A stretch of 34,519 nt of DNA, taken from Anaerolineae bacterium (GTDB lineage: Bacteria; Chloroflexota; Anaerolineae; J102). A program made the position numbers and the translations under genes. Location: NCBI GenBank assembly GCA_027002405.1, contig JALWZT010000333.1, positions 1 to 34,519 of the forward strand, written 5' to 3'. The stretch's first letter is position 1. Every line of letters begins with the position of its first letter. Below, piece after piece: positions 24,955 to 32,559 of the stretch. Under the pieces are notes generated by a model. The model saw only the letters and a list, made by a program, of their open reading frames with translations, had not been told where the DNA came from and did no database searches.

Positions 24955-26460
<1,506 letters not shown>

Positions 26461-26535
26461 AGGTTTTTTCCTCAATTTGAAATAGGATGCCGTTCCATCG
26501 GGCTTTTTCATAAAAAGCCGTTCGGTGGAACCAGC

Positions 26536-26606
26536 CGTGAAACGTGAGACGTGAAACGTGAAAGGGAACTTTGCGGCGTCGCACGTTTCACGTTTTACGG
26601 TTCACG
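26536..26606. repeat. CGTGAAA-word hairpin at the atpH-atpA junction
   Basis: CGTGAAACGTGAGACGTGAA (26536-26555) and the following words pair with CACGTTTCACGTTTTACGGT (26582-26601, extending to 26606) around a 20-nt loop. Only one base separates it from the TGA of atpH. The words have an exact 7-bp period. Confidence 0.85.
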
Positions 26607-26607
26607 A

Positions 26608-27129
26608 TCAGGATACGCCGAGCTTCTGGCGCAAGGACTGCAACCGCCCGCGGACGCTGTCGTCGATGAGCTTGTCGCCCACCTGCACGATCACACCGCC
26701 CAGGATCTCCGGGTCCACCTGGTAGACAAACTCCAGGTTGGGGCCGAAAGCCTCGATCAAACGCGCTTCCAATTGTTCCCGTTCCTGGTCCGAAAGCGCC
26801 ACAGCGGTGGTGATCACGGCCTTTTGCGGCCCAGCCGCTTCCTGGGTGAGCACCCGAGCCAAGGACTCGAGGATGTCATCCAACAGGCCGAAATCATTGT
26901 GGGTGAGCAAAACGCCAAGGAACTTACGCAGCTCGGGCGGCGCGCCTTCGGGCAGACGCCCTTCCAGAAGCGCCAGCTTATCCTTAATCTCAACGGTGGG
27001 ATTGTTCAGGGTTTCCCGAAGCCCGGCGTCGGTGGCATAAGCCGAATGAACCGCGGTGAGCCCATCCAGCCAGGGCTCCAGCGCAATAGCCAGGATACTT
27101 CGGGTATAGGCTTCGGGCGTTCGTTCCAT
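26608..27129 (-). CDS. atpH: ATP synthase delta subunit
   Basis: Delta (OSCP) links F1 to the peripheral stalk. The 173-residue product has the helical N-terminal domain (AYTRSILAIALEPWLDGLTA, LLTHNDFGLLDDILESLARV) and the conserved C-terminal PEILGGVIVQVGDKLIDDSVRGRLQSLRQ-type end. ATG 27129 is used; an in-frame TTG at 27135 overlaps atpF. It starts 2 bp after the atpF stop, so the two are probably translationally coupled. A hairpin repeat follows the stop. Confidence 0.95.
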   Translation of the reverse strand: MERTPEAYTRSILAIALEPWLDGLTAVHSAYATDAGLRETLNNPTVEIKDKLALLEGRLPEGAPPELRKFLGVLLTHNDFGLLDDILESLARVLTQEAAGPQKAVITTAVALSDQEREQLEARLIEAFGPNLEFVYQVDPEILGGVIVQVGDKLIDDSVRGRLQSLRQKLGVS

Positions 27130-27131
27130 GA

Positions 27132-27623
27132 TCAATTCAAGCTCACTTGAGACAAGAAGTCCTCGATGATCTTATGCTGGGTGGCTTCATCCAGCCCTTC
27201 CCGCACCACGCGCTCCGCGGCCAGAAGAGCCAGCTCCGCGATCTGCTTGTGCGCCTCGGCCAGGATGCGCTGCTTTTCAGCTTCGGCTTCCTCAACGGCC
27301 CGGGTGCGGATCGCTTCGGCCTCACGACGAGCCTGCGCCAAAATCTCTTCGCGCACCTTTTCCGCTTGCGCGGACGCGGCTGCCACGCGCTTTTGTGCTT
27401 CTGCCCGCTCTGCTTCAAGCTGAGCCATCAACCGCTTGCGTTCCTCTTCGGCCTCGCGGCGGGCCACATCGGCCGCGGCCAGGCCCTCGGCAATTCGCTT
27501 CTTGCGGTCTTCCAGCATCTGCGAAACCGCAGGGAAAACGAATTTTTTCAACAGAATGTAGAGCAGGAAGAAGTTGACAATATACGATATGAGATAATTT
27601 AAATTCAGGCCTAACGACGCCAT
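27132..27623 (-). CDS. atpF: ATP synthase b subunit
   Basis: The b subunit forms the peripheral stalk. The 163-residue product has one N-terminal membrane helix (about 9-28, LISYIVNFFLLYILL) and a very long charged coiled coil rich in Glu, Ala, Arg and Gln. A single b gene is present (no b'). AAGGAGG lies about 7 nt before the ATG. It is positioned between atpE and atpH as usual. Confidence 0.96.
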   Translation of the reverse strand: MASLGLNLNYLISYIVNFFLLYILLKKFVFPAVSQMLEDRKKRIAEGLAAADVARREAEEERKRLMAQLEAERAEAQKRVAAASAQAEKVREEILAQARREAEAIRTRAVEEAEAEKQRILAEAHKQIAELALLAAERVVREGLDEATQHKIIEDFLSQVSLN

Positions 27624-27673
27624 ACATCAACCTCCTTGAGCTGTCAGGGGCGGATTGGATTAAGTCCGGGGTC

Positions 27674-29006
<1,333 letters not shown>

Positions 29007-29045
29007 CAGGGAGTTTCTCCTTCGGGGATTTGTCAATGACGAACG

Positions 29046-29324
29046 TCAAATAGCGTCCTGAGTGGCTTTGTTTGCGCCATCTTCATCCGACTCATCCAAT
29101 GGCGCCAAGGTCAGATAACGCGCCTGAATCGTTCGGATGACCAGGATGGTCGCCAAAAAAATACCCAAGAGCATGCCGAACAGCGTGCCCAAGGGCGCAG
29201 AATCCGCAAAAAGATCGAACACCACGCCCACAAAGAGCGGGAGGAAAAGGGATAGCCCCACCAGAATGACCAGTTTAACGGTCAGCGGGGTCCAGTCAGA
29301 ATGCTTCATTGCATGCTGAGCCAT
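29046..29324 (-). CDS. AtpI/AtpZ-like small membrane protein, first gene of the atp operon
   Basis: This 92-residue protein has two membrane helices (about 14-36 and 45-66) separated by a short loop, and an acidic C-terminal tail (LDESDEDGANKATQDAI). Position and topology match the AtpI/AtpZ proteins that precede atpB and are thought to help c-ring assembly or Mg2+ supply. ATG 29324 or the internal ATG at 29309 could be the start, and neither has a good ribosome site. A promoter lies 75 bp upstream. Confidence 0.8.
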   Translation of the reverse strand: MAQHAMKHSDWTPLTVKLVILVGLSLFLPLFVGVVFDLFADSAPLGTLFGMLLGIFLATILVIRTIQARYLTLAPLDESDEDGANKATQDAI

Positions 29325-29463: not shown

Positions 29464-29931
29464 CTACTCGGCCAGAGCCTGGGCCACGCCTCCCCCGAGC
29501 ATCCCCACCACCCCACCGAAAAACCAGGCCCCACCACAGAACAACACGGCAAAAAACACACTCCCGCCTACCGTGTTCATTTGCATCACATCCACGCCCA
29601 GAGAAAGCAGATAGGTGACGATGGGACGAGGCAGAAGCAGCAACCCTTCGATCTGATTCCCTGCCAGCTTAAACGCCAGAGGCGCCAGGAAAATATTCGC
29701 AACCCCATCCATCAGGCCCGCGATAACCCCTGCCGCCATGCCCGCGGCCACGCCACCCGACCCCGCCCCCTGGGCGATGGCAATGCGCCCGGCCAGATAC
29801 CCGGCCACGGCCCAGGCCAAAATCCGCAAGGGGAAAGCAAAAAAGCCGCAAATGGGGATGATCCCCAAAACTGAAAAAGCCACAGCCAGCAGACCGCCAG
29901 CCAAGCCTCCTCGAAAAATACCTCGGGACAT
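29464..29931 (-). CDS. Small multipass membrane protein of unknown function
   Basis: This 155-residue protein is dominated by Gly/Ala-rich membrane helices, about four or five (for example LAGGLLAVAFSVLGIIPICG, ILAWAVAGYLAGRIAI, GGVAAGMAAGVIAGLMDGVA, TVGGSVFFAVLFCGGAWFFG). The glycine zippers resemble small DUF-type proteins common in Chloroflexota, but I do not recognise the family. It starts 24 bp after the M50 protease fusion on the same strand, so the two are probably co-transcribed. No ribosome site is evident. It could be a partner or substrate of the protease; nothing in the sequence proves it. Confidence 0.65.
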   Translation of the reverse strand: MSRGIFRGGLAGGLLAVAFSVLGIIPICGFFAFPLRILAWAVAGYLAGRIAIAQGAGSGGVAAGMAAGVIAGLMDGVANIFLAPLAFKLAGNQIEGLLLLPRPIVTYLLSLGVDVMQMNTVGGSVFFAVLFCGGAWFFGGVVGMLGGGVAQALAE

Positions 29932-29955: not shown

Positions 29956-31290
29956 CTACAAGTGGAAGAAAGAGAAAAACTGTTGAAAGCCCAAGGAAGC
30001 CATGATGGCCGCCTCGGAACTCAACGCGTCCATAATCAACCAGATCGATTGCCCCACCCAATCCCCAAAGGGGGTGTAGGCGAACAGCAAAAAGAAAAGA
30101 AAAATCCCCATTCCCCCCAGCATGTACGCGTATTGCAAAATGTGGGGAGGAAGCCAGGGTTCCAGGATACCAAAACCATCCAACCCAGGCCAGGGGATGA
30201 GATTCAGCACGAACGCGAAAATCTGGAAAAACGCCAGGAGTGCCAGCGCGGCCCAGAAAGACGCATGGGCCCGCAGGGCCATCTCATTCAGCCCCACCAC
30301 AAAAGGCAACAACAAAAGCAAACCAAAAAACAAGGTCATCAAAGGCCCGGCCGCAGAAACCGCGCTGCGCATCCAGGGTTTGCGGATCGCGCCCCGTTGA
30401 ATATACACCGCCCCCCCAGGCAATGGAATCCCTCCCAACAGCAAAAAGATGATAGGCAGAAGGATGCTCAACATGGGGTGCGTGTACTTCAGGGGATTCA
30501 ACGTGAGATACCCGTGATGCACCACACTCTCATCCCCGCCCCAGTAGGCCACCAGGGCATGCCCGAATTCATGCAACGACACCGCCAGCACCCATCCCAC
30601 CAACACAAAACCAAAGGTCAGCGCGTTGGGGTTTCCGATATTCAGGTACAACATGGCCCCCAGGCCCGCGAAGATAGCCACCAGCAACAAAAACACCGGG
30701 CTAATGGGCCATTCCCAATTTGAAGACCGGGCCGATGGTCGGGCAACAGGCCCCATCCCTCGCGTGCGTGGGACAGGCGCCCGTCGTGCGGGACGGGATG
30801 AGGCAGTTTCCGCGCGCAAGCGCCCGGCCCGAGTTCGAAACGTATCGGCATCGATCTCGAACTGCCGGAGGATCTCCCCGGCCTCGGTCTCTGGGCTCCG
30901 CAACATGCCCAAAATCAAAACCCGGGAATCGATGGCCGCGAGACCATACGCTTCCCCCTCGGCCACCGCCTCTGCCATGGCCTGGGCGCCATCCTCGGTC
31001 AGGGCAAAGCCGAAGAATTCCCCTCCGTAGGGCTCTTCCTGATTGGCCCCCAGCCGCACGTACGCCCATAGCCGGGTCTTCATCTGATCCAGCTTCAAGG
31101 GGAACTGCTCCAACACCTGCGTTCCCAAACTCCCGGGCGTTTCCAGAATCCCCAACAAAATGTGAAGGGAATTCAGCATGGTGTGGCCATGGCCCGCGGC
31201 AATGGCCCGAGCCGTGATCAACGCGTTCAAACCATCCTGAGCCAGCATCAAAGGCCGGCGTGACGTCTGGGAAGAAGAAACCTGGCTCAT
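29956..31290 (-). CDS. Clp N-terminal domain fused to an M50 (site-2-type) intramembrane protease
   Basis: The 444-residue protein begins with a Clp-N double repeat (about 13-160): NALITARAIAAGHGHTMLNS, HILLGILETPGS, then ALTEDGAQAMAEAVAEGEAY and DSRVLILGMLRSPETEAGEI. ClpA/ClpC use this domain to bind adaptors. A basic Pro/Arg/Ser linker (about 163-190) leads to a membrane zinc protease. HEFGH (240-244) lies in the second of about six helices, and the second motif NLIPWPGLDG (363-372, D371) provides the third ligand. The protein should therefore recognise something through the Clp-N domain and cut membrane proteins. No PDZ or CBS domain is present. A TATCCT hexamer lies 7 nt before the ATG and no ribosome site is seen. 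An alternative start at residue 15 cannot be excluded. Confidence 0.87.
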   Translation of the reverse strand: MSQVSSSQTSRRPLMLAQDGLNALITARAIAAGHGHTMLNSLHILLGILETPGSLGTQVLEQFPLKLDQMKTRLWAYVRLGANQEEPYGGEFFGFALTEDGAQAMAEAVAEGEAYGLAAIDSRVLILGMLRSPETEAGEILRQFEIDADTFRTRAGRLRAETASSRPARRAPVPRTRGMGPVARPSARSSNWEWPISPVFLLLVAIFAGLGAMLYLNIGNPNALTFGFVLVGWVLAVSLHEFGHALVAYWGGDESVVHHGYLTLNPLKYTHPMLSILLPIIFLLLGGIPLPGGAVYIQRGAIRKPWMRSAVSAAGPLMTLFFGLLLLLPFVVGLNEMALRAHASFWAALALLAFFQIFAFVLNLIPWPGLDGFGILEPWLPPHILQYAYMLGGMGIFLFFLLFAYTPFGDWVGQSIWLIMDALSSEAAIMASLGFQQFFSFFHL

Positions 31291-31333: not shown

Positions 31334-31440
31334 GCTGTTCCGTAAAATAGGATTAGGATTAGGATTAGGATTAGGGATGCTTCGCTCCCTCCGGTCGCTC
31401 AGCATGACGAACTTCTGCGTCAATCTGCGTTGCGAAGCAT
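31334..31440. repeat. AGGATT tandem words and single-arm GAGCGAAGC repeat
   Basis: CTGTTCCGTAAAATAGGATT starts a run of five 6-bp TAGGAT words (to about 31374), the same opening as the partial repeat at 9686. It passes directly into GATGCTTCGCTCCCTCCGGT and CGCTCAGCATGACG, one arm of the palindrome at 3510-3640. Two repeat families are thus joined in the 219-bp divergent gap between the M50 fusion and the epimerase. Confidence 0.75.
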
Positions 31441-31509: not shown

Positions 31510-32559
31510 ATGGACTACCTGCGTTTTTATCAGCAACGCCCGGTGCTCATCACCGGCGGCATGGGCTTCATCGGCTCGAACCTGGCCCATCGTCTCGTGG
31601 CATTGGGGGCCAAGGTGACCCTCATCGATAACCTCCTCCCCGACACCGGCTGGCACCCCGCCAACATCGCGGACCTGCAAGGCCGGGTGCGGCTCATCAT
31701 CGGCGATATCGGTCACCCCGAAACCGCCCGAGACGCGGTGATGGGACAAGCCGTCATCTTCAACCTGGCGGGCTCCATCAGCCACATCGACTCCATGCGT
31801 CACCCCCTCATGGACCTGGAGGCCAACGCCCGGGCCCATCTGGTCCTGCTGGAAGCCGTGCGCCAGTACAACCCGCAAGCCGTGGTCATCTATGCCGGCA
31901 CCCGACAACAGTATGGCACCCCCCAATATCTGCCCGTGGATGAAGCCCACCGCAACCTGCCCAACGACATCAATGGCATCAACAAACTCGCGGGGGAATG
32001 GTACCACCGGGTGTACCACCGGGCCTACGACATCAAAACCTGTTCCTTGCGCCTGACCAACACCTACGGCCCCCGCCAACTGATCCGCCATCCCCGCCAG
32101 GGCTTCATCGGCTGGTTTGTGCGCCAGGCCATCCTGGGCGAAACCATCACCGTGTTCGGGGATGGTCAACAACGCCGGGATCTGGTAGAAATCACCGATG
32201 TGGTGGATGCCTTCCTGCGGGCCGGGGCCAACCCCCAGGCCTGGGGCCATGTGTTCAACCTGGGCAGCGAGCCCGCCACCCTGCTGGAGATCGCGGAACT
32301 ATGCGTGGCCATCGCGGGTTGCGGCCGGGTCACCCTCGCCCCCTGGCCCGAAGAACGGGCCCGCATCGATATCGGTGACGTCTATTGCAGCTACCAACGG
32401 GCCCGGGAAACCCTGGGCTGGGAGCCCAAAACCCCCTTGCGCCCGGGCCTGCAACGCATGATCGACTTCTACCAACGCCACGCCGAGGTTTACCTGACGC
32501 CTGCTATGGAAATAGGATTCGGATCAGGATTAGGATTGAGGTCGTCAGGCCGACGTTGA
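31510..32559 (+). CDS. NAD-dependent epimerase/dehydratase (extended SDR)
   Basis: This 349-residue nucleotide-sugar enzyme has the Rossmann motif GGMGFIGS (about 16-23), a D-pair in LIDNLL and GDIGH for NAD binding, and typical strings YAGTRQQYGTPQY, LRLTNTYGPRQL, GFIGWFVRQA and FGDGQQRRDLVEITDVVDA. The usual YxxxK active site appears as NGINK in DINGINKLAGEWYHRVY: the lysine is kept but the tyrosine position is Asn. I recall the GINKLAGE variant from a whole SDR subgroup, so it is probably not a mutation. The substrate is unknown. ATG 31510 starts the conserved part. The last 14 or so residues (EIGFGSGLGLRSSGRR region) are translated from the composite repeat that begins at 32510, so the original C-terminus has been replaced. 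Confidence 0.88.
   Translation: MDYLRFYQQRPVLITGGMGFIGSNLAHRLVALGAKVTLIDNLLPDTGWHPANIADLQGRVRLIIGDIGHPETARDAVMGQAVIFNLAGSISHIDSMRHPLMDLEANARAHLVLLEAVRQYNPQAVVIYAGTRQQYGTPQYLPVDEAHRNLPNDINGINKLAGEWYHRVYHRAYDIKTCSLRLTNTYGPRQLIRHPRQGFIGWFVRQAILGETITVFGDGQQRRDLVEITDVVDAFLRAGANPQAWGHVFNLGSEPATLLEIAELCVAIAGCGRVTLAPWPEERARIDIGDVYCSYQRARETLGWEPKTPLRPGLQRMIDFYQRHAEVYLTPAMEIGFGSGLGLRSSGRR

Follow-up and report, generated by a model that had tools for sequence, protein, structure and literature searches.

What does a Clp_N double domain do when it sits on a site-2-type intramembrane protease rather than on an AAA+ protein? The question is raised by one reading frame in a contig of an Anaerolineae bacterium (Chloroflexota; JALWZT010000333.1 of assembly GCA_027002405.1), whose full 34,519 nucleotides are referred to here as the window. 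The accessory domains of known bacterial site-2 proteases (S2Ps) are either PDZ (subfamily 1) or CBS (subfamily 3) and influence substrate access (PMC6242693, PMC11486902). The PDZ part of RseP appears to serve both as a size filter and as a contact for trimmed substrate (PMC6242693), and the CBS domain of SpoIVFB helps, together with its linker, to position pro-sigmaK, the role of CBS in S2Ps having been termed enigmatic (PMC11486902). A search of open-access full text, with most subscription papers outside its reach, returned no earlier description of a Clp_N-M50 fusion.

Architecture and predicted topology of the fusion

The fusion is encoded at positions 29956-31290 of the minus strand, as are all of its parts described below, by a 444-aa reading frame with an ATG start and without an internal stop. 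The first-pass annotation had recognized a Clp_N double domain and an M50 protease in this one protein, an assignment on which Pfam, the predicted folds and the complete motifs agree. Pfam detects two stretches of Clp_N (PF02861, E 1.8e-11) as well as Peptidase_M50 (PF02163, E 1.7e-7), each above its gathering cut-off, so that the N-terminal part does score as Clp_N in a profile search, and phmmer against solved structures matches solely Clp-type N-domains (best E 0.0017). NCBIfam gives sub-threshold echoes only (ClpB, daptide metalloprotease). No AAA+ domain is detected in the protein by Pfam or NCBIfam, and neither PDZ nor CBS is detected by Pfam in it or in nine further full-length fusions. 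An AlphaFold2 model of the whole fusion, built with 36 relatives, reaches a pLDDT of 89.1 and a pTM of 0.71, with low confidence solely at residues 1-7 and 165-189.

The N-terminal half contains two tandem Clp_N repeats, at residues 16-81 (31048-31245; best Pfam stretch 27-77) and 99-160 (30811-30996; second Pfam stretch), both with structural matches. Residues 12-165 align to the N-domains of ClpC1, ClpB and ClpA with VIA Z scores of 20.9 to 17 and rmsd of 1.7-3.6, at 17-20% identity to solved N-domains, and the best match (ClpC1 NTD, Z 20.9) covers 145 residues. The segment between the repeats, residues 82-98 (30997-31047), contains PYGGEFFGFAL and is a predicted beta-hairpin with AlphaFold2 strands at 88-92 and 95-98; among members of the genus, segments of this type are the best conserved stretch in the N-terminal half. 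The fused domain therefore shares its fold and two-repeat layout with the N-domains of ClpC, ClpA and ClpB (Z 20.9-17), but differs from them in its replaced pocket glutamates and its predicted inter-repeat hairpin, as well as in not being carried by an AAA+ protein. In this last respect it resembles mycobacterial ClpC2 and plant ClpT1/T2, Clp_N double domains without AAA+ modules whose structures also match (8ad9, 8b9o, 4y0c, 4y0b), although these have other partners and roles and neither is fused to a protease.

The Clp_N part is followed by a disordered Arg-rich linker (residues 161-196, 30703-30810; pLDDT below 50 at 165-189), a first transmembrane (TM) helix beginning ISPVF, N-terminal to the protease core (residues 197-220, 30631-30702; AlphaFold2 helix 198-215, in agreement with hydropathy), and the M50 core itself, assigned by Pfam, fold and structural alignment (residues 221-444, 29959-30630). 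The zinc motif HEFGH (residues 240-244, 30559-30573) lies inside helix 221-250, and N363 together with LDG (residues 370-372, 30175-30183) makes up an NxxPxxxLDG-type motif for a further metal ligand. H240, E241, the F and H244 of HEFGH, N363 and D371 do not vary among 36 aligned proteins, some with Clp_N and others lacking it, and a second alignment of relatives confirmed this for H, E, H, N and D. When residues 190-444 were folded alone (pLDDT 92.7, pTM 0.90), the model aligned to RseP (Z 10.4), M. jannaschii S2P (mjS2P, 9.1) and pro-sigmaK-bound SpoIVFB (8.2), after which Z dropped to 5.5 for an unrelated structure; Foldseek ranked mjS2P first, at a weak E-value of 0.028. By every feature testable here the protein is a member of M50, belonging to neither the PDZ nor the CBS subfamily, and its protease is probably active.

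The active sites of characterized S2Ps lie towards the cytosol. The fusion has a single TM helix (197-220) ahead of the HExxH helix, as does mjS2P (model residues 4-223 aligned on chain residues 8-196), and analysis of charges found the linker preceding this helix to be rich in Arg; taken together, the positive-inside rule and the alignment of TM1 and core with mjS2P place the N-terminus, and with it the Clp_N part, on the predicted cytosolic side. SpoIVFB and mjS2P (subfamily 3) thus offer the closest parallel in layout, with the same core, the extra TM helix before the HExxH helix and a linker-joined accessory domain, predicted to be cytosolic in the fusion, the difference being that their accessory module is a C-terminal CBS domain and that of the fusion an N-terminal Clp_N double domain. 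Judged by predicted side and position, the Clp_N part would be an analogue of the cytosolic CBS, with another fold and at the opposite end of the chain. RseP (subfamily 1) shares the protease core fold (Z 10.4, 10.1) and the HExxH and LDG motifs, whereas the fusion lacks PDZ and carries its accessory domain on the predicted cytosolic rather than the periplasmic side; moreover, the alignment with RseP begins only at model residue 30-35, which leaves the TM helix ahead of the core without an RseP equivalent in that region.

Distribution, descent and selective constraint

The fusion is present in each of the eight further genomes sampled from the genus; it is intact in seven and divided between the ends of two contigs in the eighth. 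Across the class it was recovered, complete or broken by contig ends, from 20 of 396 genomes, in families f1, f21, f33, f41, f46 and f56, and a match in f38 that is cut by a contig end retains what appears to be the last part of the Clp_N sequence. Another Chloroflexota class has it in f74 (5 genomes) and f77 (8 genomes), and so do two named Anaerolineales metagenome-assembled genomes (MAGs). The Clp_N part exceeds the Pfam cut-off in nine of nine further fusions, the lowest score, a marginal 21.1 bits, being that of the diverged copy L084. The fusion is spread over at least eight families and at least two classes of Chloroflexota, widely but patchily. A sequencing join of two genes, which the first-pass annotation had named as a possible artifact, is rejected, because the frame is open in seven independent same-genus assemblies and in other families.

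The protease also occurs in Chloroflexota without Clp_N, in families f27 (about 216-220 aa), f94, f50 and f15, and the domain is therefore dispensable in some lineages. The possibility that the fusion is limited to Chloroflexota holds in our sample, which covers two other phyla. The protease is found in 11 of 199 Planctomycetota genomes and the fusion in none of the 199, and 145 genomes from the phylum of a Lentisphaeria MAG gave no match at 1e-40, in a search that had no positive control there. Two Planctomycetota matches with long upstream frames (434 aa) were set aside, since Clp_N is absent from these frames, which look like read-through ahead of the gene. In plasmid records, tblastn located the protease in Rhizobium, Methylobacterium, Bosea, Nocardia and Amycolatopsis (Alphaproteobacteria, Actinomycetota), and the four copies inspected (Rhizobium, Methylobacterium, Nocardia, Amycolatopsis) have no Clp_N.

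A tree of the protease core requires six changes of the fusion label (four to seven in bootstraps, at least two forced, that is, required by well-supported branches), which indicates that Clp_N was gained or lost more than once; f50 and f15 sit inside a fusion group of this tree, and one of its rows labelled as lacking the fusion (L061) is a contig-truncated copy and probably a fusion. The Clp_N tree separates the fused domains from 40 ClpC/ClpB-type N-domains of this phylum at a cost of two label changes, one of them forced. This separation means that no lineage recently took its Clp_N from its own ClpC, and recent capture of a host ClpC N-domain is accordingly not supported. One old fusion followed by later losses may account for both trees, several gains being the alternative.

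Within the genus, median dN/dS is lowest in the inter-repeat hairpin (0.09), followed by M50 (0.11) and Clp_N (about 0.16), and highest in the linker (0.69); these values are rough, the two main domains having yielded 22-26 usable pairs, and as dS is near saturation only their ranking is firm. Identity within the genus runs in the same direction, at 80% for the inter-repeat segment and 28% for the linker. Clp_N is kept by purifying selection almost as strictly as the protease, and so is not dead weight, while the linker is almost unconstrained. We conclude that the Clp_N-M50 architecture is real, old and selected, and that it is a new combination on a known kind of protease.

Other proteins of the phylum also carry Clp_N in unusual settings. 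One genome of f46 that has the Clp_N-M50 fusion additionally encodes a 654-aa protein joining Clp_N to a TCAD9/APH-like phosphotransferase domain (L189:385-2346, G332:C36). Two further proteins without AAA+ modules consist of four Clp_N stretches alone (L191:848-1732) and of three Clp_N stretches ahead of weak TPR-like sequence (L193:829-2244), and a stand-alone Clp_N protein (L195:636-1190) lies just upstream of a full-size Clp protein (878-aa frame). The occurrence of Clp_N alone, in four copies, and with TPR-like or TCAD9/APH parts indicates that Clp_N serves this phylum as an independent module. Family f21 encodes Clp-like AAA+ proteins of 728-731 aa (L190:1048-3240, L197:1106-3289), in which the first AAA module appears degenerate by eye.

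Pocket and groove positions of the Clp_N part and genomic neighbourhood

ClpC binds phospho-arginine (pArg) in two pockets with E32 and E106, which are also taken by MecA, and has a hydrophobic groove that serves as the binding site for substrates and MdfA (PMC12583610). The window protein has L42 at the site equivalent to E32, in repeat 1, and R123 at that equivalent to E106, in repeat 2. Glutamate is found at the E106 site in 0 of 29 fusions and at the E32 site in 8 of 29. The host genome encodes one full ClpC and two ClpB-type proteins, all three of which keep Glu at both sites. ClpS was not detected in this genome by a search that was positive in 5 of 14 control genomes, and the McsB arginine kinase gave no match in the host genome or in any control genome, a negative that carries no weight. 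With the pocket glutamates mostly lost and no ClpS found, docking of canonical adaptors or pArg by the fused Clp_N is unlikely. Positions equivalent to those of the groove are hydrophobic (V13 and L88 in 29/29 fusions, V12 in 26/29, F80 in 21/29); mapped by sequence alignment, their character may reflect packing alone, and it would allow, without proving, the binding of hydrophobic segments.

As the fusion lies on the minus strand, the downstream membrane protein proposed as a partner in the first-pass annotation is the 155-aa frame at 29464-29931, which begins 24 bp past the fusion on the same strand. It adjoins the fusion in the window and at seven loci of the genus, has no Pfam or NCBIfam match, and is not beside the fusion in other families within the flanks examined; being a neighbour in this genus only, it is not a general partner. 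The only neighbour conserved across families is a pyruvate-kinase-type gene common to f21 and f77, and in the absence of a widely conserved neighbour synteny names no partner. This gene encodes about 470-490 aa and is found one or two genes downstream from the fusion at L136 and L121 (f21) and at L129, L130, L132 and L134 (f77), its sequence being that of a pyruvate kinase in L136 and L130; its recurrence across two classes possibly reflects old shared synteny, not function. In the window, the fusion and the 155-aa gene are immediately followed by F-type ATP synthase genes (24955-29324, same strand), an arrangement that does not recur in other members of the genus within the flanks examined. 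Short GGATTA-like runs occur at 31345-31377, between the fusion and a divergent epimerase gene, and again at 32515-32540, towards the 3' end of the epimerase frame.

Proposed client recruitment and alternative roles

A true Clp_N domain, predicted to be cytosolic and kept by selection, on a protease with complete M50 motifs makes recruitment the natural reading, and we regard recruitment of a cytosolic client or partner through the Clp_N groove as the most likely mechanism, with an even chance of being correct. Held at the cytosolic face by its flexible linker, the Clp_N groove would bind hydrophobic or unfolded stretches exposed by proteins in or associated with the membrane or, alternatively, one dedicated cytosolic partner through the same hydrophobic surface. 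The tether would raise the local concentration of the client at the protease, which would then cleave it, independently of ATP, inside the membrane close to the cytosolic face. Clp_N would in this way be a module for recruitment or selectivity, comparable to the RseP PDZ or the SpoIVFB CBS domain but built on another fold. Of the recruitment idea in the first-pass annotation, the capture of substrates or partners thus stands as the likeliest role, while ordinary Clp adaptor docking does not, given the lost glutamates and the failure to find ClpS. Recruitment can tentatively be extended, with a modest chance of being right, to ATP-independent membrane quality control, where Clp_N, freed from the AAA+ motor and from pArg and adaptor recognition, would act as a membrane-tethered client receptor for an intramembrane protease, as part of a wider reuse of Clp_N in Chloroflexota.

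S2P cleavage is coupled to Clp proteolysis in E. coli, where the RseA fragment passes to ClpXP, and this precedent counts for a role in which the fused Clp_N contacts the host ClpC hexamer or its adaptors and either hands cut fragments to ClpCP or brings ClpC to the membrane. The host does have a full ClpC and two ClpB-type proteins as potential contacts, and since the N-domain of resting ClpC contacts its own AAA1 and M-domains (PMC12583610), a foreign Clp_N could in principle compete. These resting-state contacts, however, use the pArg1/2 sites (PMC12583610), whose glutamates are lost here, and the lack of a detected ClpS and the distance of the fused Clp_N from ClpC, both in identity to solved N-domains and in the tree, further argue that such a hand-off is unlikely. 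We consider it quite unlikely that Clp_N binds no client and is instead a steric or oligomerizing gate, excluding folded cytosolic domains until they are trimmed: the long, disordered and unconserved linker would suit a tethered bulky gate, and the PDZ of RseP appears to be a size-exclusion filter in vivo (PMC6242693), but the conservation of segment 82-98 points to a specific contact, for which a pure size filter has no need.

The Clp_N-like domain of ClpC2 sequesters a ClpC1-targeting peptide (PMC10030653), and as this characterized non-AAA+ Clp_N protein is also a structural match (8ad9, 8b9o), the fused domain might be imagined as a membrane-tethered sponge or decoy for a ligand; this is very improbable, since it would offer no reason why the domain is joined to a protease whose catalytic residues are invariant. 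Related proteases without Clp_N do exist, as would be expected if the fusion were a functionless accident or an assembly join, yet its recovery from independent assemblies and at least eight families under purifying selection leaves that explanation a negligible probability.

To PDZ and CBS, the known bacterial accessory domains, Clp_N adds a further one that may bear on how S2Ps choose their substrates. The presence of one protease family with and without Clp_N in neighbouring lineages constitutes a natural experiment, through which the contribution of the domain is testable by deletion and swap. If recruitment is indeed its role, Clp_N, which is familiar chiefly for bringing clients to ATP-driven unfoldases, would be able to work for a protease that needs no ATP.
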